From Marchantia polymorpha subsp. ruderalis (lineage: Eukaryota > Streptophyta > Marchantiopsida > Marchantiales > Marchantiaceae), in NCBI GenBank assembly GCA_037833965.1, contig AP031356.1:11306501-11370500 (forward strand): 64,000 nucleotides of DNA, given 5' to 3'. Positions 2,888 to 64,000 of the stretch are shown in pieces. The notes under the pieces were generated by a model. The model was given only the letters and a program-made list of their open reading frames with translations, was not told the DNA's origin and did no database searches. Within the stretch, counting starts at the first letter, position 1. Each line of letters opens with the position of its first letter. A program made the translations under genes and the position numbers.

Positions 2888-4303
2888 ATGGTGGAGAAGG
2901 CGGCGTCGTCGCTGGCTGTCCGCCGCAGCGCTGCGCTGCTCTTCCTGCTCTCGGCTCGCAATTCCTCGGCCACAGCGGCGGCATCGTCGTCCTCCACCGG
3001 CAGCTGCAAGGCCTCGACGCTGAACCATCAGTCGCCCAACGGAGCGCATGCTCCTCTGTCGCCTCTCTCGCCCCTCTCACCGTGCTCTCGCCCGTGCCTT
3101 CCGCTGTCCTTCTCCGCGTCGCCGTCGCCGTCTCCTCCAGCGCGTCACTCCAGAAGTTTTTCGTGCCTCACGTCGGAATCTGATCAGGCCTCGCCCCTCA
3201 GCGACGGCGCCTCTGGGTTCCCCAATGCCACCTTCGAATGGAGCCCGCGCATTCTCAAGGACGATGGTGATTCTCAACAGACGAATTCCGGATCCGACCA
3301 CGATGCCGAATTGCAGAAGATTGTCAGCCACGTCGAAGATGCCCCTCCGCCCACGGCCGAGAGCCGCAAGCGCGCTCGTAGAAAACCTCAGGAAGATACT
3401 CGCCATCCTATTTACAGAGGCGTTCGTCGACGAAGCTGGGGTAAGTGGGTGTCTGAGATCCGCGAGCCCAGGAAGAAGTCTCGAATCTGGCTCGGATCGT
3501 TTGCCACCCCTGAGATGGCAGCTCGGGCCTACGATGTGGCGGCACTGAGTCTCCGAGGTTCTGCTGCTCTTCTCAACTTCCCTGAGAGCGTCCCTTCCCT
3601 TCCACGACCCACAGTCATGTCCCCCAAAGCCATCCAGGCCGCTGCAGCAGCTGCAGCCTTCTCCTTGCCCGTGCCTATGGCTGAACCTTCTCCGGACAGC
3701 AGCAAGTGCAGCACCAGCTGCTGTCGATCAGGTCCATGCACCCCGAAGCTGAGCTCCATGTCCAGACCCACGGCGCCACCTTCTCCTATCTCTCCTATTT
3801 CTCGCATGCGTTCATTCACCCAGTCTCAAAATTCTAGCACCAAACCTAGACCTACTGTGTCCTCGATATCGAGCAACGGAGGCCAACAACAACAACATCA
3901 CCATCAACAACTACAACAGCAGCAGCAGCAGCAGAAGCAACACCATCAGCCGCAGGAGCAACACCATCAGCCCCAGCCCATCCGCTCACAACCCACGTCC
4001 TTCAATAGATGCAGCACCACGGAAAGCTCTTTCATGGATTCCCGAAGAATGGCTGCAGCAGCCCCAACCCCCGTATCGTACCACTGCTCGCAGGCTGCTA
4101 TGATCAACGAACCAGACGACTCATACTTGGATGAGGACTTACTATTTGACATGCCGAGTGTGCTGTCTAGTATGGCCCAAGCGATGCTTCTACCCTCTCC
4201 AGTCATGGAAGAGCAACAACAAACGCTTACGCCGACGATGATGACCTACTTCGATGACCAGGATGGCAACCTGGTGTGGGAATCTGACCTCTGGAGTCTG
4301 TGA
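2888..4303 (+). CDS. DREB-subfamily AP2/ERF transcription factor, A-4 (TINY/HARDY)-like
   Basis: Predicted 471-residue nuclear DNA-binding protein. The single AP2 domain spans about residues 176-232 and contains [19 protein letters not shown] followed by the RIWLGSF and [10 protein letters not shown] blocks. Val188 and Glu193 are the two positions (14 and 19 of the domain) that mark DREB proteins, which bind DRE/CRT elements (core CCGAC). The [16 protein letters not shown] stretch and the LNFPE ending match group A-4. A basic cluster, KRARRK (161-166), just before the domain is a likely nuclear localisation signal. The N-terminus is long and rich in Ser and Pro. An Ala run lies at 251-257 and a Gln/His tract at about 333-362. 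An acidic-hydrophobic segment (411-438) and the C-terminal DLWSL resemble A-4 activation motifs. No intron is needed, as is usual for DREBs. The start has a good context, with an in-frame reading from the first ATG after the leader. The exact orthologue is unknown. Confidence 0.93.
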
Positions 4304-33466: not shown

Positions 33467-36400
33467 CTAAGAATCATATCTCTTGTGCTCCCTATGCACA
33501 ACTTGCATAGTAGCACAGTGTCGCCTGAAACTCTCCAAAGGAATAAGTTTGGTCAATGCATCAGCTGGATTGATTTTAACGTCAATCTTGACTAGCTCAA
33601 TTGTTTTATCAGACACTGCTTGTCTAATAAAGTGATACCTGATGTCGATGTGCTTCACTCTGCTGTCCATGACTTGGTTCGCAGCCAAATGTAACGCACT
33701 CTGGCTATCACAATGAAGATTGACCATGCCTTGTGTTAGTCCCATCTTCATGATAAGTTTATCCAACCAAATAGCTTCCTTTGCCGCTTCAGCTGCTGTC
33801 ACGTACTCAGCTTCTGTTGTTAACTGAGCTACACACTTCTGCAAGGTAGATCTCCAACTGATGCTTCCGCCGCCAAGTGTAAACACATATCCAGTTGTAG
33901 ATCTCCTTTTGTCTAAAACTTGTCCATAGTCAGCATCAACGTAGCCAAACAAGGACTTGGCATTGTCTAACAAACCATCAAACAATAAGTCATAATCCAC
34001 AGTACTCTTCAGATATCTTAGAATCCATTTCACTACTTCCCAGTGAACTTTCCATGGATTTGAAATGTACCTGCTCAACTTTCCCATTGCTAGAGCAATA
34101 TCAGGCCTAGTGCACACTATTAAATACATGAGGCTGCCTACAGCTTGTTCATAGGGAACACATGACATTCTTCCCTATTTCACAGCATTTGTAGGACATT
34201 GGGCTACGGAGAGTTTAAAATGTGCCGGCAGAGGAGTCCATACTCCTTTCGAATCGGCCATGTTGAACCTATCAAGTATACAGCGAACATACTTGCCCTG
34301 ACTCAGCCATAACTTCTTCTGTTCAAAATTTCTATAAATATCCATGCATAGTATCCTTCTTGACTCCCCCATATCCTTCATCTTAAATGCAAACTTCAGC
34401 TGGCTCTTGCATTCATCGATATCGGATTGGTTTTTTGCCAAGATAAGCATGTCGTCAATGTAGAAAACTTAAATGATGAGATTGAAAGTCTCATCGTTCA
34501 CCTTCTTCATATAGACACAAGGATCATACATGCTTCGTAGAAAATCTTGTGCCTTCAAAAACTCATCAAAACGTGTATTTCACTGCCTAGGAGCTTGCTT
34601 TAGTCCATACAATGATTTCAATAATCTACAGACCCACCTCTGCTGGCCTTTGACCTCAAAGCCAATTGGTTGTCTCATGTAGATCTCCTCCTCTAAATAT
34701 CCATAAAGAAAAGCTATAACCACATACATCTGATCCATAACAAGACTCAATGTTGCGGCCAGTGCACATACCAGACGAATTGTAGCGTATTCTGCTACAG
34801 GCAAAAAAACTTCGTTATAATCCACACCCTTTTCTTGTGTGAAACCTCTATCCACCAATCTAGCTTTGAAGATTCTTGCCTCATCTCCTGTTGGATTGTC
34901 TTTAAGCTTGTACAGCCACTTGGAGTCAATCACTGTCTGATCTTTAGGAAGCTCAACCAACTCCCAAGTCTTCTTGTCAATTAGTGACTGCATCTCCCGC
35001 TCCATAGCAGCATTCCATTCAAGCTTGTTGACCAAAGTTTGAGCTTCTCTATATGAAGAAGGTTCACCTTCTTCCAAGATCAACGCCATACCATCCTCAT
35101 CTTCAAAATCAAGGTCACGATCTTTGAGAATAGATGAGTTGGACCATACACCAAATCTCTCAAGCGCTATACTAGATAGTTGTGATCTCCTAGTAAACGT
35201 TTCCATTTGATCTCTCTCGTCTAATATTGTTGCAATATGCTCATCAACAATAGCCTGCTCTTTTAGTTCTTGTTCCTCAAGAACTTGCTCCACATGTATC
35301 GGTGCTTCTTCATGTGACGGATCATAAGTGATAGAATGATCAAACTCCTCCACAACAATATCCGTGAGTAAAGATTTTCCCTTGTTAGCCTCCACATTCT
35401 CCCCCTCTTTCAATAAGCCAGGCTCATTGAAATAAACATCTCTACTAACAACCACCTTCCTAGCAACTGGATCCCATAGCCTGTAACCTTTCACGCCGCT
35501 AGCATATCCAAGAAAACAACATTTCTTGGATGTAGGATCTAATTTTGTCCTTTGCTCCTTAGGTTTAAGAGGATAAGCAGTACAATCAAAAATTCTCAAG
35601 CGACTATAATCTGCCATCCGTTTATGGTTCAGTTCAAACGGTGTTGAGAAATTGATTGCACTAGAAGGAGAAAAGTTTACCAAATAAATTGCGGTGTTGA
35701 CAGCTTCGGCCTAAAATTCTCCTAGTAAACCGGATTCGCTTAGCATACTCCACACCTTCTCCAACATTGTGCGATTGAGTCGTCTAGAAACAACATTTTG
35801 TTGCGGAGTATAAACCGTCGTGAAATGGCGAGTAATCCCCTACTTTGTACAATACCTATGAAATTCTTCACTAGTATACTCGCCACCATTATCGGATTGC
35901 AAATGTTTCACTTTGTGTCCAGTCTGAGTCTCAACTTGTATGCGTCAACTTTTGAAGGTTGAAAACACCTCAGACTTGTGGGTAAGAAATTATACCCACA
36001 CATACCTGGAGTAATCATCTATAAAGGGGACATAGTACAACTTTCCTGACTGTGAGGCAACAGGAGAGGGTCCCCACACGTCACTATGTACATACTCCAG
36101 TATCTCCTTGGAACTATGAGTTCCAACACCAAAAGTTTTCCTATGTTGTTTTTCCATTATGTAATGTTCACAAAATGACATGTCAACTTTACCCAAACCG
36201 GGTAATACCTTTTTCTCATCAAGAAGAGACATGTATCGATCAATCATATGGTCTAATCTGGAATGCCATACATGAGACATCTCATTGCGAGATTTGGTTA
36301 AGTGAACTTCGCCACAAATAGTGATGCCCTCTAACAAGTACAGATTATTATGCTTGTATCCCCGAAGAATAACCTTCTTATCACATGATCTGACATCTAA

Positions 36401-36711
36401 CACGCCTGTCTAGAACTCCATTCTAAGCCGTGTGAGTTCAACACTCCAAAAGAGATCAAGTTCTTTCTCATGTTAGGTATAAATCTAACATGGTTCAACG
36501 TACGGTTGACACCATCAAACATGCGGATCTTTACAGATCCAACACCCTCAATTCTATAGGGTTGGTCATTCCCCATAATAACTGAACCGTTTGATACAGA
36601 GAAAGTACAAATGAACTCTCTAATGTAACAAATGTGATAAGAACAAACAATGTCCAGAATCCATACATCACCAACAACTTGCGGTGAATTGCAGAGCGCA
36701 TACCTCTAGCC
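33467..36711 (-). pseudogene. copia pol relic (protease, integrase, RT, RNase H) with several stops
   Basis: Reading from 36711 down: a protease region (DVWILD type), then the GAG-pre-integrase and integrase finger with WHSRLDH and FCEHY. The latter has Tyr where a zinc-binding Cys is expected. Next are VHSDVWGP and FIDDYSRY, two integrase acidic positions. A 367-codon frame (34580-35683) carries the integrase C-terminus and reverse transcriptase up to LLKSLYGLKQAPRQ, where the expected Trp codon is a stop. The RT motif YIDDM follows near 34460, also after a stop. RNase H (33467-34168) retains DADY, TEAEYV and LHCDSQSALHLA. At least four stops or shifts interrupt pol, so the element cannot make a complete polyprotein. 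Confidence 0.9.
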
Positions 36712-37527
36712 TCATAGACCATCCGTGTACAAGTCGTTCGCCTCAGTATCAAGATGTTCAGCAACGTTCGTCATTGAAGGAGAGGTTGTACTTGTCATCC
36801 GACAAAACTTCATGATGTGGCCTTTCTTATCACAGCTCCAACAAACAACACTCTTCTTGTCAAAAGGTTGAGCCATAAATTGTACCTTCCTTTTGTTAGG
36901 AGATTTGGATCTCTGCCTCTTCAGGCCTGGACGCCGTGAATCATGGGAATCTCTCGGTTGGAATGGACCTCGGGCCATAATAAGTGCTGACTCATAAGTG
37001 GATGGGACGGAAGGGGATAACAAATCCTGCTCAACCGCATTTGTCAAAAGGGCACTTACGACCTCGTTGTAAGTGACTGCTGTGTTCTGACGATGAAGAA
37101 GAATCTTTGACAATGTCTGATAACTAGACGGAAATGAGTGGAGAAGATGCATTGCCTTCTTTGTGTCAGTAAGCTCCTCCCTCATATTCCGAAGATCCAC
37201 CAATAGATTTCCATATGCGTGAATGTGGTCTTGTATGCGCGTGTCGGGCTTCATAGTAAACCGTAACAATCGCATGTAAGTGTTCATCACAATCGTCAAA
37301 TTCTTCTGATGGAACCGTTGCCAAAGCGCATCAAGCAACTTGGAAACTTCAGAGTATTCCTCAACCTGCTTGAGTATGGAAGGGTCTAGATATGCCAAGA
37401 CCGTGCAAATTGCCTGGTCTTGAGCTATAGTCCATTCAATGTCATTTGTGCTAGAAGGTTTTTCTCCCAAGCATATAGTGAGACCCATGGATCGTAATTT
37501 TACCTTTACTTGGTTTTCCCAAAGCAA
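36712..37527 (-). CDS. copia gag-like nucleocapsid protein (UBN2-type), largely intact frame
   Basis: A 271-codon frame with the retrotransposon gag core: a YLDPSILKQV...LWQRFHQK segment, LHSFPSSYQTL and the nucleocapsid zinc knuckle CWSCDKKGHIMKFC (C-x2-C-x4-H-x4-C), preceded by a basic stretch rich in Arg and Lys. It would form the virus-like particle and bind the element RNA. The familiar gag start FDGHGDYLLW lies in frame upstream of the first Met at 37527, so the annotated start is probably internal and the original start is lost or upstream. It ends before the protease region. Related broken gags occur at 39690-40446 and about 57090-57760. Confidence 0.85.
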   Translation of the reverse strand: MLWENQVKVKLRSMGLTICLGEKPSSTNDIEWTIAQDQAICTVLAYLDPSILKQVEEYSEVSKLLDALWQRFHQKNLTIVMNTYMRLLRFTMKPDTRIQDHIHAYGNLLVDLRNMREELTDTKKAMHLLHSFPSSYQTLSKILLHRQNTAVTYNEVVSALLTNAVEQDLLSPSVPSTYESALIMARGPFQPRDSHDSRRPGLKRQRSKSPNKRKVQFMAQPFDKKSVVCWSCDKKGHIMKFCRMTSTTSPSMTNVAEHLDTEANDLYTDGL

Positions 37528-48781: not shown

Positions 48782-48945
48782 GTCATTGTAATAACCCACC
48801 AAAGGCTAAAACTGCAGTATGGTGGTAAAAAGATCGAACCCACAGGGACAGAGGCAACACACAGAGTAAAAGTGTCACGTTTAACAGACTTTTGTAGAGT
48901 TTGAATTCTAGGCGACTGTCACTCCCAGAAATACTGCAGTGCTCG

Positions 48946-49020
48946 ACTCGGAGGTTCGACTCGGAGGAGGATCTCAACTCGGAGGATGCTCGGAGGATGC
49001 ACAGTACAGCGTGGTCACTC

Positions 49021-49053
<33 letters not shown>

Positions 49054-49081
49054 GAAACGGGCAAAAAGCACAACTCGGAGG
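48946..49081 (-). repeat. Subterminal ACTCGGAGG cluster and AC microsatellite
   Basis: ACTCGGAGG occurs at 48946, 48959, 48977 and 49073, with GCTCGGAGG at 48988. An (AC)15 tract lies at 49022-49051. The cluster is about 160-295 bases from the element end, where transposons often carry protein-binding repeats; that role is inference. Confidence 0.8.
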
Positions 49082-49755
49082 TCGGTCAGGACCTCCGCTT
49101 CGGATTTCAGGAGGAAAGTGTCTCACCAGTTCACTCAGAGGTTCTGCAGGTAGTGCCTCCCACTCCGGCTTTTACTGCCCTTCCGCCAGGAACTAGCGGG
49201 GGTACCCGGACTGGACTTCCCACTTCGGAACGAAGCCTCTACATACGCCGTGGACGTCACCCTCGACTATCACACCAAACGCAGGGAGTGCAGACCCGAC
49301 TGAGAACTTACTGAAAACACGATCCAGTAACACACACACAACCTGAATTACAAACCAAGGTTTACACGAAGTAATGAAACTTCACATTGGCATTCAGGGG
49401 AAACTTCCCGTAGGAGTACAATCAGGATATGTCACTCGAAGGAGTAAGGGGGAACTGTTCAAGTATCTAACTCGCAGCCGGCTCTGAGCATCAGAAATCA
49501 CCCGCAGGTGCAGATCCGCACTACTCAAGTCTCTAACCGGGTGCTAGCTCTGAACATTCAGCCGAAGGCCTTCAACTACAACATACGGTAACTTCGCTAT
49601 GCTGCAGCTTCTCTACGTGGTGCCAGGACCAAAATGCACAAACACGCCAAGAAAGTGAGTTCCTGATCTGCACTTCCGAAACTGGAAGAGTCCCAAGGCA
49701 AAACGCCTTGAACTACTTTATACTCTCAAAAGATCCTAACTAGCACTACGCTATC

Positions 49756-52311
49756 CTATCTACCACTCGCAGCATCTGCGCGAAACCAAACTACTCTACT
49801 GCAATCAGCAGATCCGGTGCTGCGCCTCCTGCGCGCCGGACTGCTCCGCTTACTGTCTCTACCGTGCCGGTCTTCCGACCGGCTGCGTAACCCCAGGCGT
49901 CGGAGCGCTGTGGTGACTTCCGACTGCAAGTGCGCCATAGTGTCGCGCGCACCCGACAAGAAGGTTTCTAATTTTCTCGCCACTCGCCGCCGACTCCGAC
50001 TGTCATCCTCCGTCAATGCCGCCGCCCGAAGCTCAAACTCCCGGAGTGTAATCCTCTCTTGAGCTGCCACCTCCCAATGGGCGTATCCTTTTAGACAACG
50101 AGTCACCTGTGCCGCCAACTCTCCTCGCGCCCTGCAGCTGCTCTCCACCTCGGCCAGCTGCAATTCTAATCCCGCACGTTGTGCCCTCAAATCCGAGCAC
50201 TCGGATTGCAAGTTGCACAACAACTCCTCATCCTCCTTGCGGGCTCTTTGACTTTCTTCTAAGGCGCGCGTCTGGCGCGCAAGCTCGGCTGCTAGGACTT
50301 GGTTCTGTCTCCGTTCCTCCTGCAATTCTGACTCGATCTTTGCCCGTATTAATTCGGCATCCGCCTGACTTTTCGTCGCCGCATCCTCCTTCTGCTGCTG
50401 CAAGGCTTGGTATAGCTTCTGGGTGACCGCCAGGTGTTGTCGGAGGGCGGTGTTCCTATCCACATATACTTGGCAACTAGAGGCCCACTTTGCCACCTTG
50501 ATCCTCGTCCTTCGCCTGATAGTCTCCACATAAGACTGCGGTTTTAAGGCACTTGCGTATTTGGATGTCTTGCGATCCAGATATCGCAGGAGTGGAACTA
50601 TCTGTTCGCACAGCACCCCTGTTGGCGTTTTCTGCACCGAATCTGCTTCCTGCTCTTCCGAGCTCGTATCATCCTCAGTCTCGAGGATTTCAGTCGCCAC
50701 CGAATCCCTTGGCGACTCCCTGGAACTGTGGCGCGCAGCAGCTTCCGCTGCGACTGCTGCTCCACTGCCTGCTAAAATATCCAGGGCAGTGGGAGATCCC
50801 ACTGTTTGAGCCCCTGTTCCGGCTCGATCTTCGGTTTGTGAAGGGGTCGACGCCGCAGTGACTTTTGTCACTCTTGAACCGCCCGCTTCTGCTGCCTGTC
50901 CTTCCGGCGCAATCTGCGCGGAAGGTGTCCTTGTTGAGGGTGCGTCCGCCGAAGGCGTCCGCACACTGGTCGTTGGCCCCATCTGTCTCGCAGTCGGCGA
51001 ATCCGGCCGACTCTCTGTTGTCCGACTCGCAGTCGGCCGACCAGCAGTTGTCCGACTGGGAGTCGGATACACTCTGCGCGTCTTGACTCCACTTGGCCTG
51101 CTTGCTGGTGGCGTTCTTCTAGAAGTGCCTTCCGCCGAAGACGACCCTCTGAGGATTGTTGGCTCGTCAGCCAAACTCTCTTCTGCTTCCGGCCTGCTGT
51201 CCGGTTCAACGCGCCGTTCAGTTGGCCTTCCTTCCGCTTGTCGACCTTCAGTCATCCGACTCGCAGTCGGCCGGCTGTCAGTCCGTCCATCTCCTCCCGA
51301 AGGCCGTGGTGCCTTCTGTGCAGAGGTATCTGCCGTTTTCCCTAGAATCTGAGCGATTATCTCTTCCTGTGTGAGATTCCGCCGGGTCGGAGTTCGCCTG
51401 GTCTCCTCAGTACAAGTTGGCGTTTTGCGTGCCCTCTGTTTTGGTCGACTGTGAGGCTCGGGGGTGGGCCGACCACGAGTCGGCGCAGCTGGCACTTCCG
51501 GCTGCCTGTCCTCAGGTCTCTCATCCCACTTCCGCTTTCGCGGAATGCGCTCACTTCGACGTTCTTCTGCTGCTCTTGCTGGAGCCGGAGCCGGAGGCGT
51601 ACTAGCAGGTTCCTCGTCCGGATCCGTGTCTACTTCGGCCTCCCTTGAATATCTACCTGGATAAGTCCGGGTCAGCTGTGGAAACCGTGTTTTCTCAGCA
51701 TTTGTCAAACATCCCATCGCCCGGTAAAACACGATTAAGTAAGGCGATAGATGATTGAGGGTTCCTCCCTTCTCTTCTTGCGCATGTTGGCGCGTCACCT
51801 TCCACAGGAGCCGTGCCCAATGCACCGGAGCTCCTGACAACACTAGCTCCACAAACTCTACCTGCCAACCATGCATGTAAGCGGTCTTGGTCGGCTGCAA
51901 TATCTGCAGCAATGCCGTCGCGACATTTCTCCGCAATCGATCCTTGTAATCCCGTGTCCGGAAACCGTTCTTGGGATGTCTGGCAACTTTGAAGAGCTCA
52001 TTGTAAGAGACTTCTTCCTCCTGGGACACCTTCACGCTATCGGCCTCGAAGAGGAGATCCCCTTCCTCGCCGGCACACCTGCCCAACACCTGCGCCCAAT
52101 TGCAAATGTCCCATCTCTCTGGGTGTGGGCGAAATCCGCGAGAAGGCTTGTGTCTCTCCTGCAGATACTCGCGCACCATCTCCGGACATGTCCAGTTCCA
52201 CCCCCATAGGAGAAAATCGAGCTTCAGCCTCAGCAGCACATCTTGAAATGCGCGTAGACCGATCTGCGGCACCCTGAGTGGAGACACTCGCAGCTGGGGA
52301 ACCTTCGACAT
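49756..52311 (-). CDS. Element-encoded coiled-coil protein of unknown function (851 aa), intact
   Basis: The frame is open from 52401, but copies 2 and 3 begin their similarity at MAP(S/K)K..KV, which aligns with MSKVPQL here, so the start at 52311 is preferred. Residues 1-210 form a conserved Trp-rich domain with LDFLLWGWNW (31-40), VLGRCAG (75-81), GWQVEF (148-153) and VHWAR (163-167). Residues about 220-560 are disordered, rich in Arg, Pro, Thr and Ser, with repeated RPTASR. A second conserved block (571-605) has LLRYLDRKTSKY and SYVETIRRRT. Residues about 625-735 are predicted coiled coil (long Glu/Gln/Arg/Leu helix). CLKGYAHW (739-746) begins a third conserved block, and the tail is Arg/Ser-rich and basic. 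No DDE, RT, protease or zinc finger is visible. A gag-like structural or DNA-binding role is conceivable but unproven; I do not recognise the family. Confidence 0.8.
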   Translation of the reverse strand: MSKVPQLRVSPLRVPQIGLRAFQDVLLRLKLDFLLWGWNWTCPEMVREYLQERHKPSRGFRPHPERWDICNWAQVLGRCAGEEGDLLFEADSVKVSQEEEVSYNELFKVARHPKNGFRTRDYKDRLRRNVATALLQILQPTKTAYMHGWQVEFVELVLSGAPVHWARLLWKVTRQHAQEEKGGTLNHLSPYLIVFYRAMGCLTNAEKTRFPQLTRTYPGRYSREAEVDTDPDEEPASTPPAPAPARAAEERRSERIPRKRKWDERPEDRQPEVPAAPTRGRPTPEPHSRPKQRARKTPTCTEETRRTPTRRNLTQEEIIAQILGKTADTSAQKAPRPSGGDGRTDSRPTASRMTEGRQAEGRPTERRVEPDSRPEAEESLADEPTILRGSSSAEGTSRRTPPASRPSGVKTRRVYPTPSRTTAGRPTASRTTESRPDSPTARQMGPTTSVRTPSADAPSTRTPSAQIAPEGQAAEAGGSRVTKVTAASTPSQTEDRAGTGAQTVGSPTALDILAGSGAAVAAEAAARHSSRESPRDSVATEILETEDDTSSEEQEADSVQKTPTGVLCEQIVPLLRYLDRKTSKYASALKPQSYVETIRRRTRIKVAKWASSCQVYVDRNTALRQHLAVTQKLYQALQQQKEDAATKSQADAELIRAKIESELQEERRQNQVLAAELARQTRALEESQRARKEDEELLCNLQSECSDLRAQRAGLELQLAEVESSCRARGELAAQVTRCLKGYAHWEVAAQERITLREFELRAAALTEDDSRSRRRVARKLETFLSGARDTMAHLQSEVTTALRRLGLRSRSEDRHGRDSKRSSPARRRRSTGSADCSRVVWFRADAASGR

Positions 52312-53668
52312 TGCGTTGCCTGCACACACAAACGTTCTCCCTTTCGCTCGCTCTCTCACAATCGCCACTGCGCGTCGGCCACTCAAGCACTGACTGCTCA
52401 CTCTCTCTGCGCTCGTTCAAGATCGCTACTCGCAATTCTTTCAAGGTCCGCCAAGATCCTTGCGCAACTTGTCTCCGCACTCTCTTCTCTCACTGCAGGT
52501 CGCTCCGCCCTTGCGCGTAATCTTGGAAACTGGAAATCGCAAAGTCAAGAATGAGAGAATGAGACTGGAGCGCAGTCTTTTCTTCTCCGATTTCAAGAAC
52601 GTCCAACGTTCTTACTGGTTGCAACGTACGCAGCCGGCTATACGGCTTAACGGTTCGCCCTTTGCATGCGCGAATTCACGTCTCCGCACTGCGCGCATTC
52701 GCATGCTTAAACGTTGAATTCTCCCGCCGCCGCCACCTTCCGGACTCGAGTCCGCTGCCGGGTATACGTCGGCCCTGTTGTCTTTTCCTAACCCGTCCCT
52801 CACCGGAGGCGTGTCGCCGCTGGTGCGTTCATTATCCGTCGGCGCCTTGCTGGAGGCGCACATCCAGTCGGAGCGAATTACGCCGGCGCGCAGTCGTACC
52901 GCCTATTTTGTCCTTTATGCCTCATCCGTTGCTGCCGGCGCATATCCGTCAGCGCAACTCATGCCAGCGCATCCGGCCGTCAGCGCCACGTCGGAGGCGT
53001 ACATCCGACCGGCGCTTTCCTTCCATGAACAGCCGCCAAAGGCGCTTCCGACTCTGAGTTGGTTTCCTCCTATGAGCGCATGATTCCGCCGAAGGCGCAT
53101 CGCTGAGGGCGTACGGGAATCCTTTCCGGCTGTGAACCCTAGCGCGAACGGCGCATGTCCGGCTACGAGTTTTCCGACGCTCATAACTTCTCCATTCCTG
53201 ATCCATCTCCGACGCTCTTGGACTCGTTAGAACGAGCGTCCCGAGCTCTTTCTAATGCAACTTCAACCAACTGGATCTACCGTGTATCCCGATTGTTATG
53301 AAGGTTTCCCCTTTCCGCGCTAGCGGCGCTTCGCCGAAGGCGCACTCATGGTCGGACGCCTTTAGAGGTCCGGGCCCTTCTTCTGACGTCTTTAGCAAAA
53401 CCTCCTCCTGAGGTGTCTGCGCCGGAAACGTAGCTTCCTTATACGCTGGAGGCGCGTGAGTAGAGACACCTGAGAAAAGGAGCTTTTGCTGAAGGCGCCG
53501 AAGACGTTGGCGTTGGTACATCCGACTACGTGATTCTTTGTGCCCTCGTGACGATCTCATCAATCCACTCTATTTAGCGTACCCTTCTCTAGCTACAAAC
53601 ACTGCTTTGGTACTAGTTTTCTAAAATTGTTTAAATTCTGCAAAAAAAACAAAAAGTGTGTTACCACA
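52312..53668 (-). other. Leader and upstream region of copy 1
   Basis: About 1.35 kb between the coding start and the element end. It is rich in irregular GGCGC, CCG and GAAGGCGC-like repeats, with a T-rich/A-rich terminal 90 bases (CTTTTTG/TTTTTTTTG next to the end). Copies 2 and 3 have a comparable leader in which CCGAAG/CTTCGG motifs recur. It presumably holds the promoter. Confidence 0.5.
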
Positions 53669-53673
53669 GTCAT

Positions 53674-55299
53674 ATTCTCAATAGATTATTATCTTACTTT
53701 TTTTTGAAAAGTATTTCAGATGGATGTGATTTAAGGTCTGAATTTTTTACAATGTTTGTCATATTGTAACTTTTATAATATTTGAAAGATCATTAAGCCG
53801 TATCACGTGAAGTATGATATTATCTTGTTTTTTTTGTAATTCATCAATCAGCAAAAGCAACTTAAAAATTTTTTAATTGATTGTCTGCTTATTTTGATGA
53901 AATAAAACAGCTGATAGTAATTGATTCAAAGCAACTAGTGGCTTTAATAGATTTATGATATTATTTATAACATTTTTTCTCAATAAGATTTTAACTATAA
54001 ATCACTAGATCATCAAAGACATCAAGGTGATCTTAAATTTCTGTATCAAATCTTTTAATTTGAAATATGTCAACTTTTAAAAAACTTACAACATGTTTCA
54101 TAATTTTTGCGATGAAATTACCTCTTAAAATCTTCAAAAAATTGTCACACTTCAACAAATTTTCTAAAAAAAGTTTGTTAATGTAGTATTAAAATATTCA
54201 CAAAATAAGTTTAAAATTTTTTCTAGTTTTTATCGTTAAAAATGAAGGATTTAGGCTTCAACATCTTTTTCAAATCCGTAGCCTTCAACTTGCTCTTGAT
54301 TTGATTCTTTTTTAGCAGATTATCACCACGTACATCATATTTGACTATGTCATATTTAGTTTTTCCAAGACTCATGGGAGTGATCTCATTTGATCAAAAA
54401 TTGACATGTCCTTGTATAGTTTTTTCATTTTTTATGATGGGTAAAACAATCTTTTAAAATTTTATGTTTTATTTCATCACTTTGTATTAAGAAAAAATAC
54501 TTCAATTATTTAAAAGCGATTTGATTTGATTATTTGAGATTTATATTCATGCAAGTTTTTTATCTTAAAATTGGATTATATTGTTGATTCTTTTTTTAAT
54601 TCAATATGATTCATCTTATTTTTAATTCAAGATTAGCATAAAAAACATAAATTCAAAATATCTACATAATAAAAATGCATTATTCAAACTTTCAACAATA
54701 GATTTAAATATATCACAAAACAAGTCAATGAACACATAATGTAAGCATTATTTTTTCACTGATTTTTTTCTTCATTCACTTGATTCCTCACAAAAGGGTG
54801 TCAAAGCCAAACTTTTTTATGCATCAAAACAACAACATGGACATATAAAAGTATTCTTCAAATTTTCACATTTTGATTAACTATTCATGATAGCTATTAA
54901 TTGACAATTAGAATGGCTAGCAAGGTGAGATATTTAAAACACTTAAATGATCAAAAGAGTCAAGGTTACATCATTGTCACTTGCAAGTATTGATTCCTTG
55001 CAACATTAATTTCATGCACATAATGAGATTGAGTGTGGAATATCACACTAGAATATTTTTATATTAGTTCATTTTTTCATGATTATGCTAGATCTCAAAT
55101 CTATAACTTGCACATGCAACTTAACAAATGTTGATGACTTGACCTAACATAAATCTTTTCATCTTATGCATCATTTTTTTAAAACATTCAGGATCTTGCT
55201 TGAAGTTTCAACGAAATTCAACGGAGTTTAGAGCTTTTTCAAATCAAGCTTTTTAATTATACCTCGTTCAAACCTACCTTTGATAGTTAGTTATATTTC
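53674..55299. other. AT-rich intergenic DNA
   Basis: Continuation of the desert interrupted by copy 1. Only A/T-rich low-complexity sequence and no coding potential is seen. Confidence 0.65.
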
Positions 55300-57811
55300 A
55301 AGTTTGATTGAGGATTTGAATAAACTAGGTATAATATTTTGCTTTGAACTATAGAGGAGGGTGAATTGTAGCTTATTCTATACATTGTCTTAGGATTTTT
55401 GACATTAAACTCTTATGTTTTTGTGCCATAATCAAAGACAAATCACGTTCTTGTTGGCATCAAATCTGCGTGTTTTGTGCGACGATCTATGTAATTATTG
55501 TTTGTTTTTTTAAATTAAAAATGGTATTAGAGCTATGTGAAACAAAGTTTGAAATCAAAAAGGACAAAAGGATGAGCATAGCAATGCCGGTAGGGAGTCA
55601 CAAAAGGACAAAAAAGGTTAAGAATTGAAAGACGAGATCTCAACTGAGTCTAAGAGTTTTGAACCAACATCCTGTGATCCTCTATATTACACATTTTTAA
55701 GATACAACAAAAATTAGCATCAATGATGAAAGCAAAAGTGATTGAACACTAGATCATACCTAGTTGTCTTGTAGCACAATCATCCATTTGTCTTCTATTT
55801 TGTATTGAAGTATCAATGATCATTGTAGTTAAACAGGCTACATCCTAGAGCTTTAAACTTTATGCTTCATCAAACAATATTCTCACATCTTTTAATTTTC
55901 ATCATAGAATGTTCACATTGCATAAACTTAACAAAGTAGTTCTTTGATCATTTATCTGTACTAGAATTGTTGAATCAAAAGAGATCCAACTGTTGTGAGT
56001 GAAATTAAAATAATAAATGTTTGTGTTTTCAAATTCAGATGTATCTCTCATATGTGTTACTCTGTTTGTAGTTCTGGAGCTTTCACTATCTATCAACAAT
56101 AATAGCGCATCTATAAAACTTGTGATTACAATCAAGTTACTTTGATCATGACATGTTAGATACAAATCAAATTCCTTTTAATATTATAGAGATTTATGTC
56201 ATTTCAATTGGTGCAAGCGAGTTAATCACACAATTTGTTGTACAAAGTTGTGATTTTTTTGGACCTACTCAATTTTTTTGCGTTGCTAACGTGAAAAGTC
56301 CGAACAAGAATTAGGATCAGGGCAATGAAAATATTATGTTGTTGATATGACTCGCTATTCAAATTTTCAGTGCTTATATGGACAAAATCAGCAAGCGTTA
56401 GTCTAGCCTACTTGACTTTGATGCTAATTTTACATCCTAATGCAAATGCATTGGCGGCTATTTTTGTAGCAAAAAAAAGAAAAAATGCTAATAGAAGAAA
56501 AGATGCATGTGTATGATAATCACAATTAGCCTACCAAAATTTCAAAAAATCTCAGGGCTGAGAGATGTTATCAATCTCGGTAAAGTTTGATCATATACAT
56601 GACTTGATACGGGAATTTTTGTCTATGGACTGCAAAACTGTCATTGAATTTTTTTCCTTTCAATGATATTTGCTAATATTGCTTGTGTTTTGGCAAAAAA
56701 AACATAGGAGCAGGAAAAACGAATGATCAAATGAAATCTATGAAATGTCCATGGACTTTGACACGATCTTGCATAAATGTACCAATGAAAACAAAAATTA
56801 GACTTGTGATTCTTATTTGAAGGGATTGATTGTTTAAAATTTTAAAGTAGGTAAAGAAAGTATGCAACAATAGATTTTTTGTTATTAAGGAATATGAAGA
56901 GTTACACATGAGTATAAAAGAAGATTTTTTCATTCAAACAATACAAGACGTAACTACAAATGTTTGACAAAAGGAGATGGTGGTCACAAAGTTTGGCATA
57001 ACACTAGTGACCTAATCAAATATGATAGATAATGTGGTTATCTTTGGAATAGACAAGTCAAGATCAACTTGGAGACAAAATACTTCCACTTACAACAATG
57101 AGCATTGGCTATATCTTCAAAAACATGTTATAAATATTATCATATCGTATTTACAACCTTTAATTTTAAAGCAAATGGATGAATATGACAACTCTAATTT
57201 GTGATTTGAGGCTCTTGATTCATAGTTTTATTGCAAAGAGTTGTCAAACAGATTGTATGCTTTTTTGAAGTTGATGGTTTTAAGATGGAAAATTTTGAAA
57301 CAAAAATTCAAGATCACATTGATATATTTGGTGATTTTGTCAATGATTTTTAAAATTTTGAAGAATAGATAAGTGATGAGAGCAAAATTCTTTATTTCTT
57401 GAGTCTATTGCTTGTTTACTATCAATCATTATTACGTTTGTTTCATTGTAATAGGCAAACAATATTAACAACAAAGCTGTAAATGCTTCATTAATTGATA
57501 ATTTATAACAATTAATATTTTACATCAAATGATGTTATCATTTTTTTCATTTTTTTTAATAAGACATTGAATGTGATTTGAGTTTGATCATTCATGGATT
57601 AACAGAAATGGCAAGTGTTTTGGATCAAAAAGTAGAGCCAAATCTATGAACAAACTTCTAGAAAGAGACACAGCGATATGTTCAAAATATGACAAGAGTG
57701 ATCATGTCAAGAAGTACGTTTGTATAAAGATCAAAGGTGTTGATCATACTTTAGGTAATGTGATTTAATAGTTGGATTTCAATGAGTATGATTTGTTAGA
57801 GTATAACTTAT
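55300..57811 (+). pseudogene. Decayed copia: LTR end, primer site, leader and gag relic
   Basis: TGGTATTAGAGC at 55522-55533 is a copia primer binding site. The preceding about 220 bases, with GAGGGTGAATTGTAG, look like a decayed LTR. From about 57090 the frame YLQPLILKQMDEYDNSNL corresponds to the gag core, and near 57675-57720 a zinc knuckle survives with one Cys changed to Tyr and a Gly changed to Asp. The relic is interrupted after the knuckle by copy 2. Its protease-like continuation (GATGTTTGGATTTTA) appears at about 61385 beyond the insertion. Confidence 0.6.
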
Positions 57812-60800
57812 TGTGATAGCCAACAAATACCAAAATGGAGCATAATGGTATAGATTCGTTCCCACAGAGACAGATGCAACATTAAAAGTCACGATTTGTC
57901 ACGTATTAACATTCTATTGAAGAGTTTTACTTCTTAGACCAATGTCACTCCCAGAATACACTGCTCGATTACAGCCGAAGGCCCGAAGAGCAGAGTATAA
58001 TCATATTCACAACCTGAAACTTTTCCAATCGTCACCTGCGAGAATCGCTTGTGATCCCACACTCAGATTTCACGGAGAAACTTCCCCAGAATTGCATACT
58101 CCCGACTCATTGACCCAAATATCCAGATCCAAATTTGCTTCAATACCGAAGAGCCCCTACTATTCTGAACATTCAAGCTGGATACTCACAACTCCTGATG
58201 CGTTAGCTTTGACAAACTGGAGGGCATTGTGCTCGGCGGCAGGATCACACACCAGCTCATAAACACACAGTGGATACAGATTGACAGTCAAGACAGCCAA
58301 TTGACAGAAAAGCCCCCAAGCCTTTGGCCTCTTTATTCACTCTGATGTCTTAGGAATCTCAACCGCTTGAGGTGAACTACTCTCAGGTGCGGTGCCATCC
58401 GACGCAGCGGTTACATCGTACTCTAAACTTACGTCTGCTTTTAACCTACAAAAGACGATTAGTATCTCTAACTCTACATTCTCTTGCGCCTCTACCAATT
58501 CCTTAGAAAAAGAATTGACTAATTCTACTAACTACTTGTGCGCCGCGGATCCGCTGGTCTTTGCACTCATCAAACGCCGCTCGAACATATCTAGCTTCAA
58601 CCACTTAATCGATTGCAATTTCCACAATGCAAATCCATACAAACACTTCTCAACTCCCACTCGCAATTCGTCAATTGTCTCGTCCCGCAACTTGGGGTGC
58701 GCTGCCTCTGCCTTTTTCGCTCTCCTTTGCAACTCTTCCGATCTCAAGGCAATCCTCTCCAACTGATAGCGTGACCGTCTGCGTTCCAATTAGATCTTTA
58801 ATCTACATTCGACCTCCGAAGATCTGGTCGCTTCGCAATCTGCCAATTTCTTGGTCCAATCCGTCAATTCTCCTTCGTGCTTCCGGGATTCCTCAGCTAG
58901 ACTTGCCGTAAGCTCCTCCGGGCGCTTGAATTCCTTGTCATGATCACCCGTGAGCTCCGCGATCTTACTACGAAGTTCTTCTTCTTTCGTCTTCGCCGCC
59001 GCAATTTGTCCCCAAAGATCTTTGGCAATTCATGCTTCTTCGGCTCTTCGCCCCTCCGCCTTAGCTAATTCTTCGGCGTGCAACTGATCCCGTTTCCCTG
59101 CAGCTGCAATCAATCTCTCCGCACATTGCACTGCCGCTTCGTAAGCTTCCTTTGACGTCTCCAATCTCCCACACAAGTCCACAGTCACCTTCTGTACAAT
59201 CTCATTGGCGGTAGAAAGACTACTACAATCTTGCTCTAACTCTACGCAACAATCATACTCCTTCACCAAGTTCAATCGCAACACCTCGCACTCCATCGCT
59301 TCGCCCGAAGTCGGTCTTCTTGTTCTTACAATGTCGCCTTTGTGGTTGCACACTCGGTTGTCAAGCTTGCAACTCGTTCCTTTGCCGTCGCAGTTGCAGA
59401 ATCCCACTCCTTCTTCACTGCCACTGCACTCTTGAGCTTTGTTCTATGCCTGATAAGCTCCACATAAGATCCTGATTCCCTTCTCACAGTATACTTTTCC
59501 CTCTTCTTGTCTAAGTACTTCAATGAAGGTACTACGCTATCCTGCAAGAAATCAAGGAAGGCAATCTCTAACGCCTTCGTTCTTTCCTCCGAAGTCTTCT
59601 CCACTACTTCAGATCTCACTTCCTCCTCAGGTGGTGGTGGCACTGGAATCTCCGTGATGTCTCCTACCGTCCCGCCAACTTGTGCAACGATTTGCTCAAG
59701 TATTGCTTCACTCAACGTGAGCTCCTTCGCTAACTCTTCACTGGTCTTTAGTTAAGGTATGTCTTCACTCCTCACAGATTGCATATGCTACGAAGATACA
59801 AAACTCGGACTAGCTGTCTCCGTACTCTCCTCCAAAGGTTCCACTGCTACGTCTGTTGGAACTTCAACTTATACCGCCGAAGGTCTTTCCTCCAACACAT
59901 GAAGTGTTGGTTCGTTAGTCTTGTTTTTGGCTGCTACAACCGTCTTCTCCACACTGTTGTCTGAAAATTTGGTCACAATCATCCTGCAATTTGCCTTCTT
60001 CTTCGGCCTAGCTCGAGTCCTTGATTGCCGAATTCCCGTTATCTCAGTTTCTGCCATTCGCGATTCCAGCGGTGGATCTTTCTCATCATCTGCCATTACT
60101 TTCCGCCTCTTAGCCAGTCGACTTTCTGACCGCACTCGTGTTGGCAAAACGTCCACCTGTACGGGTCCGCGCGCCTTTGTTTGAGATGGCACTCTCGGTT
60201 GGCCATTGTCTTCTTCCTAAGTCTCTTTGTTGGACTCGATCGCCAAAATTTTCCATTTCTTCGGAAATCGCTTTACCTCTACCTTCATGAGTAGTCCCAT
60301 CCCACCATAGAAATTCACGATGTAAGGGGTTAGTTGGTTCACCAATGGTCCTTCCCATCGGGCACTCGCATTGATTCAAACCAGATTATAAAAGATCCTC
60401 GCCCAATGTACCTGATTTCCCTTCATCATCCGCTCAAAGAACCCGACCTGCCAAGCTGTGACATACGTCGTGCGCTGCGATCGCAAGATGTGCATGACGT
60501 CCAATGCAATCGCACGTCTCATCGGATCCTTGTAATATGCAGTCTTCTACTCATTCGTTCCTGATCGCGTGTTTTTGAAGAGTGGGGCAAAAGTGAATTC
60601 TTCCGCGCACATTATCTTCACACTATCTTTCTCAAACATAAAATCTTCTTCGCTTCCTGCACACCGCCCCAGCACGCTCATCCAATGCTCAATTTTCCAC
60701 AGCATCCGATTGCTCCGGAGATCCTCCCCCTCATTCCGGTTCTTGTCCATGATCTCCTTACAAATACTCGCCAATATGCCGTTCCAATTCCACAAGAGGA

Positions 60801-61335
60801 AATCTAGATGCAATTCGCTGAGCTTCCGCCTATAGGGTCGCAATTCCTTGTAAGGTACCTTCAGCGGGACCAATTTTTGCACCTTGGCCGTCTTGGATGG
60901 CGCCATGTCTTCAATTCGCGTCTTCGCCGCTAGCAAGGTCGATTGATTCTGCTCTCTCTCACTCTCGCTTGTTCTCGCTCATTATCACAATGTCGGCGCG
61001 AATGTCCTCGTTCTACCCTTACTCTCGATAACCTAACATTCTTCTCACGCGCGCGAATTGGTACCCTCGGCGCGTGCAAACATTGTCCGATCCTTCGTGA
61101 ATTTACATTGATCTTTCGGTCTTCGCCGAAGACCCGACTATTGCATCCTCTAAAATGACAGCGCCGAAGGTCCGAAGATCCAAAGGTCTTGGGCCGAAGA
61201 CGAATCCGACTTTCTAACTAACTTTCCCATAATTCTTCTAACTTCTACCACTTAGGACTTATACGTCTACATTCTAAGACAAATATGTTTATGTTTTTGT
61301 TAATTTTGTAAAAAACAAAAAAACTAAGCACCACA
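57812..61335 (-). mobile_element. TGT...ACA element, copy 2 (3524 bp), with 5-bp target duplication
   Basis: The left end is TGTGATAGCCAACAAAT and the right end, inverted, is TGTGGTGCTTAG. Perfect duplications CTTAT lie at 57807-57811 and 61336-61340. The terminal sequences align with copy 1 at the trailer end (CCCACAGAGACAGATGCAACA; GTCACTCCCAGAA). The leader end contains AAAATTAACAAAAACATAAA, which is identical in copy 3. It interrupts an old copia between the gag zinc knuckle and the protease. Confidence 0.85.
58532..60906 (-). pseudogene. Broken copy of the element-encoded coiled-coil protein
   Basis: The start MAPSKTAKVQKLVPLKVPY at 60906 opens the conserved N-domain (LDFLLWNWN, VLGRCAG, FMFEKDSVKI) until a stop near 60547. 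There copy 3 has a Trp codon. The domain continues with YKDPMRRAIAL and AWQVGFFERMM, then a basic linker (LAKRRKVMADD). The second block (SLKYLDKKREKY, SYVELIRHRT) lies at 59326-59715, the coiled coil at 59030-59407 and the third block (CLYGFALW) at 58532-58789. Several stops and frameshifts mean no full protein. The same block order as copy 1 confirms the family. Confidence 0.8.
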
Positions 61336-61340
61336 CTTAT

Positions 61341-61629: not shown

Positions 61630-62675
61630 CTTCCATTCCATTCTATATCACCCCTTGCTCCCAATTCCTTCACATTGATTCTACTGTCATGGCGAACCGT
61701 CATGATCTTCAAGTTGTTTTTGTCAAGTTGAGAGGCTGGAGGCGAAGTTGTTGAACAAAATCTTGTGCTTTGCTGGAGGAAGAGGCTTGGTAAGACCATC
61801 TTTAATCTCATCTGCAGATCTCACATACTGTAGTCGTAGATTGCCCTTTGCAAACTACTCACGAATATAGTGATATTTTACTACAATGTGCTTTCTCTTC
61901 TGATGCAACTCAGGGTTCTCGGAAACTTTGAGACAACCTTGGTTGTCAACCAAAAGCAGTGGAGATTGGACACTCTTGTCGATGTAACCCAAGTCCTTGA
62001 GGATATATCGAAACCAAGTAGCTTCTTGAGATGCCATAGTTGCGGCAACGTACTCAGCTTCAGTTGTGAACAAGGTAACACAGTCTTGGCGCTTTGATCT
62101 GGCATTTGCAATACCTTCAAAGAACAACCAGCAATATCTGGTTGTCGAACGATAGGTTGCAAGACATCCCGCAAAATTTGTATCTGTATATCCATGGAAT
62201 TGACCGTATGTATGATCGTATTCACCATCGTAGATAATTGCTAAATAGACAGTGACTCTCAGGTAATGAAACACTCTCTTGGCTGCAAACATTTGGTCTT
62301 TGGACGGATTGACTAAGAGTCTTGACAGTACACCACACATGTACAAGATATCTGGTCGAGTGTGAATGGCGAGATACATCAATGATCCAACCATTGACTG
62401 ATACAATTGGATCTCATGCTTTGAGGCTTGAGCAATATTGGAAACCATCTTTTCTTCATACCACAATTCATTGGAGAATCCACAAGACAAGCCTTGGACA
62501 TGACAAATTTGTCCAGTATCTTCAAGATATAGGCATCCTCGCAGAGTGAAATAGTGCCTTTGCTCCAATCACGTGTAATACGCACTCCAAGAAAGTACTT
62601 AGCAGGATCCATGTCATCGACTTCAAATTCAAGTGCGAGCTTGGCTTTGAGATCTTCAATAGCCTTCATTGAGGT
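61630..62675 (-). pseudogene. copia RT/RNase H C-terminal relic, different family
   Basis: Minus-strand frames contain the end of reverse transcriptase (FEVDDMDPAKYFLGVRI), MVGSLMYLAIHTRPDI, and RNase H with YTDTNFAG, TTEAEYVAA, LLVDNQGC and the YHYIRE ending, then GLTKPLPPAKH. Short frames (61855-62568 and 62379-62705) overlap with a shift. The sequence differs clearly from the two larger copias. It stops abruptly at 62675/62676, where copy 3 begins inside reverse transcriptase. Confidence 0.85.
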
Positions 62676-64000
62676 TGTGGGGCATACTTTTTCGTTTTTC
62701 TTCAAAAATTAACAAAAACATAAACATATGTGTGTAGAAGATAGTTATATGAGTTGGAAAGAGTAGATTTATAGGAGTTATGATAGTATTAATTAGAATT
62801 CGTCTACGTCCGAAGATCTTCGGATCTTCGTGTCTTCGACGTAGTCTTTCAAGGACGTACGAAGAGCTGCGTCTTTGGCGAAGACATCGGAATCAATTTC
62901 AAATCATGCAACGGGGCCGGACAATGTTCGCATGCGTCGAAAGTTCAACGAGGTGCGGGAGAAGGCAATGTAAGGGCTTCAAGGGTGAAGGGAGTACGAG
63001 TAGACTTCGCGCCGACATTGCGATATCAAGCAAGAACAAGCGAGAGAGAGAGAGGAATTGCAATTGAGCCAATTCGCGACTAGCAAAACGCAAATTGACG
63101 ACATGGCGCCCAAGAAGAGTGAGAAGGTGAGGAAATTGGTTCCCTTGAAGGTGCCTTACAAGGAATTGAGACCCTTCAGACATGAGTTGAGGGAACTACG
63201 GCTTGAATTCCTTTTGTGGAATTGGAATTGCGTCTCAGCGAGTATCTGCAAGGAAGTTATGGACTAGAGCACAGTCGAAGGCGAGGAGCTCCGCAATAAT
63301 CCCATGCTGTGGACTATCAAACATTGGACGACGGTATAGGGACCATGTGCGGGCAGCGAAGGAGACTTGCTATTTGAGAAGAATAGCGTAGGACTTACGC
63401 GCGGCGAGGAATTCTCTTATGGGCCTCTCTTCAAGACTGGAAAACAGGGAACGAATGGATGGAAGACTATCGATTATAAAGATCCGAAGAGAAGGGCGAT
63501 CGCGTTAGGGATCATGCACATCTTACGGCCGGCGCGCACGACTTATGTGACGGCCTGGCAAGTAGAATTCTTTGAACGCAATTTGAAGGGAATGTACTTG
63601 CGTACATTTGGCAAGGATCTTTTACAATCTTGTCTGGGTGAATGCGTCTGATCAATGGACGGGATCTATGACCAATCATCTTACCCCCTTTCTGGTGAAT
63701 TTCTATCGAGGAATGGGATTGCTTACGAGCGATTAGGAGAAGCGATTTCTGAGAAAGCGGGAAATCCTAACGGTTGAATCCAATGAAGGGACTGAAGACG
63801 AGAACCGACCTCCTTCAATTCCAACACACACAACCGCTCGAGGACCAGTGCAGGTGGACGTGGTTCAAAGGCAGGAGCAGCCAAAGAGACGATTGGCAAA
63901 GAGAAGGAAGGTCGTGAGTGATGACGAGGAGGAATTGGCCCACGTGGTAAGAAGGATAGATATGGATGTAAGTGGAGCCAGACAGGACAGAGCTCGCGCA
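62676..64000 (+). mobile_element. TGT... element, copy 3 (partial, runs off the window)
   Basis: Begins TGTGGGGCATAC, followed by AAAATTAACAAAAACATAAA, as in the leader end of copy 2. It interrupts a copia RT codon run in minus-strand orientation (Thr-Ser-Met-Lys after the junction). The adjacent pentamer GAGGT (62671-62675) is the predicted target duplication. The other end lies beyond the window. Confidence 0.75.
63103..64000 (+). pseudogene. Partial, broken copy of the coiled-coil protein gene
   Basis: Starts MAPKKSEKVRKLVPLKVPY at 63103 and follows the N-terminal domain: LEFLLWNWN, stop after ICKEVMD (63265), then CAGSEGDLLFEKNS, YKDPKRRAIAL, AWQVEFFERN and NFYRGMGLL. At least two stops and a frameshift near 63640 interrupt it. 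The frame after about 63700 carries ARGPVQVDV and LAKRRKVVSDDEE, matching copy 2. The rest is outside the window. Confidence 0.75.

Follow-up and report, generated by a model that had tools for sequence, protein, structure and literature searches.

The window analyzed here, a 64,000-nucleotide stretch of the Marchantia polymorpha subsp. ruderalis genome (assembly GCA_037833965.1, contig AP031356.1, positions 11,306,501 to 11,370,500 of the forward strand), carries three related copies of a mobile element (Table 1). Copies 1 and 2 have exact TGT...ACA termini and are flanked by perfect 5-bp target-site duplications that differ between the two. Copy 3 shares their leader end, with 69% identity to copy 2 over 1277 bp. 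The only gene, an open reading frame (ORF) for 851 amino acids, starts at an ATG and is intact in copy 1. No long direct repeats were found inside the window copies, as is expected if each copy is a single long terminal repeat (LTR). An earlier note, made from the sequence alone, had recorded the termini and pentamers, the shared leader end, the lack of direct repeats and the odd protein, and had recognized the mark of a retroviral-type integrase in the ends and 5-bp duplications. These observations hold, and the element is inserted by an integrase. The note had also described a family devoid of any recognizable mobility enzyme; this part has to be abandoned, because the full-length relatives of copy 1 have two LTRs and Ty3/gypsy gag-pol genes. 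In our view, the best overall explanation, with a probability of about 0.92, is that a Marchantia Ty3/gypsy lineage, whose U3 region probably carries a gene in the sense orientation, left copies 1 and 2 behind as solo LTRs.

Table 1. LTR copies in the window and their features (window positions; element sense of copies 1 and 2 is the minus strand).
Feature	Position	Strand	Remarks
Copy 1, left target-site duplication	48782..48786	.	GTCAT
Copy 1, solo LTR	48787..53668	-	Family A, 4882 bp
TATAAA box	49717..49722	-	Only one in the family-A LTR; 33 nt downstream of the ORF stop codon
LTR ORF	49756..52311	-	851 amino acids plus stop (stop codon 49756-49758); sense of gag-pol
Copy 1, right target-site duplication	53669..53673	.	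GTCAT
Copy 2, left target-site duplication	57807..57811	.	CTTAT
Copy 2, taken as solo LTR	57812..61335	-	Related family, 3524 bp; decayed relative of the LTR ORF
TATA-like AATAAAG in copy 2	58331..58337	-	526 nt from the R-U5 end; suggestive only
Copy 2, right target-site duplication	61336..61340	.	CTTAT
Copy 3, start of a further related LTR	62676..64000	+	Opposite orientation; cut by the window end

At the 39 other full-length genome places scored, identity to the first 314 bp of copy 1 is 94-99%. For the first 313 bp of copy 2, the best other genome match is 91%. Some of the matches to the end of copy 1 are spaced about 10.67 kb apart on the same strand, which suggested LTR pairs. At one locus (G000:C6:25016600-25032135; L017/L018/L019), an LTR of 4.88 kb is followed by an internal region of 5789 bp and a second LTR. 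Along its length, copy 1 shows 98.0 and 97.7% identity to these two LTRs, which differ from each other at 9 of 4865 sites, all of them transitions, indicating that the insertion is young. In addition, C5 carries an LTR-internal-LTR-internal-LTR array, which is the type of product that LTR recombination makes. The earlier note had taken the family for an unknown one and had named long terminal direct repeats in a relative as evidence to the contrary; the LTR pairs are such repeats.

The internal region (L018) contains three long frames that run in the same direction as the LTR gene. The first, of 636 amino acids, is a gag frame (Retrotrans_gag in Pfam, 1.4e-13) with zinc knuckles (zf-CCHC), and the second, of 286 amino acids, is a protease frame with a weak match just above its cut-off (Asp_protease_2, 2.3e-05). 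The third frame, of 941 amino acids, combines reverse transcriptase (RVT_1, residues 125-284), RNase H (RT_RNaseH, 348-477) and integrase (rve, 653-752), and its best match in PDB is Ty3 Gag-Pol (2.7e-84). It is the longer relative with an integrase that the earlier note had proposed to look for. The resulting order of gag, protease, reverse transcriptase, RNase H and integrase is that of Ty3/gypsy elements. In a further copy (L020), gag and protease are fused in one frame of 942 amino acids. No Chromo match was obtained in the 941-residue frame with Pfam at expect (E) values up to 0.1, which sets the element apart from chromoviruses; the integrase C-terminus looks to us, presumably, of the Tat/Athila/Retand type. 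A polypurine tract (GAGGAGGGGGGCA) directly abuts the 3' LTR, and in family A, to which copy 1 belongs, a primer site (TGGCGCCGCTGCCGG) lies 22 nt beyond the end of the 5' LTR. The primer site of a second family, B, lies 23 nt beyond the LTR end and fits a tRNA-like 3' arm better than the family-A site does. The arm complementary to the family-B site accounts for 29 among 31 pattern matches in the genome, and we take it to be probably that of tRNA-Arg. The full-length relatives of copy 1 are thus Ty3/gypsy LTR retrotransposons.

Some junctions in this material deserve mention. On one side of the C6 element (L017:190-200, right flank of L019), 6 nt reading TAAGGA in the sense orientation stand between the LTR end and a GTGAC duplication. 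These nucleotides match the sequence immediately internal to the 5' LTR, as though trimming of the 22-nt spacer that separates the LTR end from the primer site had stopped 6 nt before the usual CA. Both flanks of that element share 9 bp (GTGACTCCT), and other readings are possible. At G000:C3:17733766, 17736953 and 17740141, three LTR-internal junctions lie about 3187 bp apart, in a short-period tandem array that contains an LTR end.

Family B is represented by L036, L038 and L041. Its LTR of 5412 bp (L038:2094-7505) contains a frame of 1046-1051 amino acids at the same place as the family-A ORF, with 49% amino acid identity over about 830 codons. The LTR gene therefore predates the split of the two families. 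Since gag and pol are 66 and 89% identical in amino acids between A and B (with synonymous sites saturated across the whole of each), the LTR protein has diverged more than pol. In copy 2, the relative of the ORF is decayed, with stops, and is recognizable in two pieces (60550-60906 and 60379-60522). By tblastx, copy 2 has 38% amino acid identity to copy 1 over 178 codons. Family-B sequence also interrupts family-A LTRs, with both sides seen in L039:1161-9901 and one side in L023, L036, L038 and L041, so that some B insertions are younger than those A insertions.

The ORF probably lies wholly in U3, as judged from the TATA boxes. In both families the sole TATAAA falls after the stop codon, by 36 nt in family B. 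If these boxes set the start of the transcript, about 4 kb of the LTR, including the gene, would be U3 and about 0.9 kb would be R-U5. Placed instead in R-U5, the ORF would be an additional frame ahead of gag, in the leader at the 5' end of the element RNA, and would be translated first in the manner of Retrosat2 ORF0. Retrosat2 and RIRE3/RIRE8 are described as carrying an extra ORF upstream of gag-pol in the text available from PMC3485330, and the 1.36 kb of LTR upstream of the Marchantia ORF leaves room for a TATA-less promoter. We nevertheless consider this arrangement unlikely, given that the TATA box follows the stop codon at nearly the same distance in two families with 49% protein identity. 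Moreover, the 1.36 kb upstream of the ORF in L038 (family B) has no blastn match of more than 150 bp to copy 1, whereas its TATA and R-U5 side does match copy 1, at about 73% identity.

If the gene is in U3, it would form the 3' cistron of the element RNA and be transcribed last, behind pol and the purine tract. Reverse transcription would copy it into both LTRs at each insertion, and it would survive the formation of a solo LTR, giving two gene copies per insertion and one kept per solo LTR. It is possible, and we propose it tentatively, that an accessory gene in the env position moved into U3 in a liverwort Ty3/gypsy lineage. The thousands of free-standing LTRs would then constitute a dispersed, partly intact gene family, whose product could have trans effects on either the element or its host, as a plant counterpart of the U3 genes of nef/sag type.

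Judged by its substitution pattern, the ORF evolves under purifying selection. It is intact (851-853 amino acids) in 12 of 17 complete LTRs, namely the window copy and the 16 LTRs complete at both ends that are contained in 26 fetched loci (L017-L042). When the genome was searched with the protein, the 53 best-scoring matches all spanned the 851 codons, 44 of them without a stop. Eleven ungapped ORF copies, which form 55 pairs, were compared. In the true frame, the ratio of non-synonymous to synonymous substitution rates (dN/dS) could be obtained for 54 pairs and had a median of 0.26 and a range of 0.14-0.45, compared to medians of 1.24 and 1.41 in the other sense frames. Variable sites were distributed over the three codon positions as 57/44/128, and as 42/31/90 outside CpG sites. 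It could be argued that the ORF is a chance open frame without a product, as 18 of 20 LTR segments of up to 250 bp have a guanine plus cytosine (GC) content of 51-62%, long chance ORFs are commoner in GC-rich DNA, and the LTR protein has no known domain. This is very improbable in view of the contrast in dN/dS with both other sense frames, of a third-position excess that remains outside CpG sites, and of a frame that is open across the 831 codons aligned with family B.

Copy 1 is a solo LTR, that is, one full LTR without internal sequence and with matching duplications. Solo LTRs of Ty3/gypsy elements are already known and entirely ordinary, and they appear to be frequent in this genome. Seven of the 16 complete family-A LTRs adjoin internal sequence and were excluded from the flank count. 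Identical 5-bp flanks were found in eight of the remaining nine, which have non-internal sequence on both sides, so the pentamer duplications noticed in the window recur elsewhere. None of 72 mismatched flank pairings gave a 5-bp match, which places the true matches above chance. An exact 18-base LTR end occurs 2345 times genome-wide, and 505 of these copies extend by 7 bases into the internal region. LTR pairs can therefore account for no more than about 1010 of the 2345 ends, and more than half look solo or detached, a share that would drop if internal starts differ in those 7 bases. Relaxed patterns, which will include related families, gave 6099 LTR ends and 1342 internal junctions (22%, as in the exact counts).

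Full elements would be copied by their own reverse transcriptase and inserted by their own integrase, producing the 5-bp duplications, and recombination between the two LTRs would then delete the internal region, leaving one LTR between the original duplications. Copies like copy 1 might instead be non-autonomous insertions mobilized by the full-length relatives without recombination, since a single-LTR insertion and a solo LTR would appear alike at the site. This is very improbable: LTR pairs, LTR-internal arrays and unpaired LTRs occur together, fitting the prediction of recombination, and we are aware of no way in which a single LTR without primer site and purine tract would be packaged and integrated. 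Finally, a DNA-transposon-like or trans-mobilized family without an enzyme of its own, Ginger-like or unrecognized, would share the TG...CA ends, the 5-bp duplications and window copies without an enzyme, but can be dismissed for copy 1 because its full-length relatives have two LTRs, Ty3/gypsy gag-pol frames, a purine tract and a primer site. A Ginger-type element proper, which is a single transposon with its own integrase-like gene and without an LTR pair, was rejected on account of the LTR pairs and the reverse transcriptase.

Several points speak against reading the copies as solo LTRs with a conserved U3 gene. The U3 placement, inferred from sequence, depends on one TATA box per family, and copy 2 is taken as a solo LTR on the basis of its ends, its duplication and its homology to the family-A LTR. 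Among the nine solo-type LTRs, L033 lacks matching 5-bp flanks, and the match in L025 (TGTGT) sits within a TG repeat and is weak evidence. Because the ORF copies were picked among the best matches, and some of them belong to one element or array (L017/L019; L021/L022), the share of intact frames carries an upward bias and not every copy is independent. The antisense frames gave dN/dS values of 1.15, 0.34 and 1.79, of which the low 0.34 is probably due to shared third positions. Between families A and B, the ORF had dN/dS of 0.20 and 0.16 in two of three comparisons (dS was incomputable in the third), with synonymous change near or past saturation. Structure prediction, which the earlier note had advised for the 851-residue protein, was run on the N-terminal 237 amino acids with AlphaFold2 and yielded no usable fold, the mean predicted local distance difference test (pLDDT) score being low with both 35 and 17 sequences (50.2 and 45.7).

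In the protein itself, about 230 N-terminal residues form a conserved part. They are followed by a low-complexity middle enriched in Pro, Ser, Thr, Ala, Arg and Gly and by a C-terminal part in which a crude count shows a heptad-like stretch near residues 772-812. The copy 1 protein had no match in Pfam at E values up to 0.1, nor up to 1, and none in a PDB sequence search at E up to 1. Ten homologues gave scattered Pfam matches, each in at most two members, the best being SKG6 (E 0.0016) and Cu_amine_oxidN3 (E 0.0037) in one member each. In the protein-database searches, each scoring about 7,990 candidates sharing most words, every named match (among 10, 35 and 50) was from M. polymorpha (subsp. 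ruderalis), and the others were nameless entries. A gag origin of the LTR protein was tried and rejected, the profile comparison being negative (probability 0.2%) with very shallow profiles. The protein may be expressed and may play an accessory role.

Compared to known systems, the element resembles Ty3/gypsy (Metaviridae) in its gene order, TG...CA LTRs, 5-bp duplications, tRNA primer site and purine tract. It differs in its LTRs of 4.9-5.4 kb with a large conserved sense ORF, and in a primer site 22-23 nt from the LTR end. Duplications of 5 bp are given as usual for plant Ty3/gypsy elements in the consulted part of PMC11963269. The sag gene of mouse mammary tumor virus (MMTV) is likewise a sense ORF in the U3 of the LTR, hence present in both LTRs, and according to the passages available from PMC9412291 can be driven by its own U3 promoter. 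The likeness is one of layout only, and host and virus family are different.

Extra ORFs in plant LTR retrotransposons are already known, and the location in the LTR, probably in U3, would be the new part. Athila and Bagy2 (sense) and Grande, RIRE2 and Retand (antisense) have an extra ORF downstream of pol that is conserved across copies and of unknown function. According to the available text of PMC7264820, these ORFs belong to the internal region and most are found between pol and the 3' LTR, whereas the Marchantia ORF is inside the LTR. Retrosat2, RIRE3 and RIRE8 of rice combine LTRs of about 3 kb or more with an extra, fast-evolving ORF, but ORF0 of Retrosat2 is described as upstream of gag-pol and not part of the LTR (a comparison by description only, from the accessible portion of PMC3485330). 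A liverwort genome paper reports Ty3/Gypsy bursts, without such detail on an LTR gene in the portion at hand (PMC9985172). In the open-licence PubMed Central (PMC) literature, as far as its retrievable text goes, we found no description of a U3-encoded plant gene, and absence is not thereby shown.

The puzzle of mobility dissolves, because TG...CA ends, 5-bp duplications and the lack of an enzyme are ordinarily explained by a solo LTR. The unusual point that remains is a coding LTR, because LTRs are normally treated as regulatory DNA. If a conserved U3 gene is confirmed, LTR-based annotation would be hiding a protein family in a model plant, solo LTRs would not be coding-dead, and the layout of a U3 accessory gene found in some animal retroviruses would have arisen independently in plants.

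Other features of the window are of lesser interest. Ty1/copia-type fragments occupy positions 34580-37527 of the minus strand, with RVT_2 and SH3-like domains at 34583-35683 and a copia-type gag at 36715-37527. Between copies 2 and 3, the stretch at 61855-62568 (minus strand) resembles on inspection the terminal part of a copia RNase H frame and has no Pfam match at E up to 0.01. A probable host gene lies at 2888-4303 (plus strand), a frame of 471 amino acids with an AP2 domain (E 2.2e-15). Elsewhere in the genome, the same spacing pattern of LTR ends occurs three times on G000:C1 (near 2260230, 2653694 and 3019775) at intervals of about 393 and 366 kb. The pattern points to large segmental repeats on this 5.59-Mb contig, which looks like the female sex chromosome.

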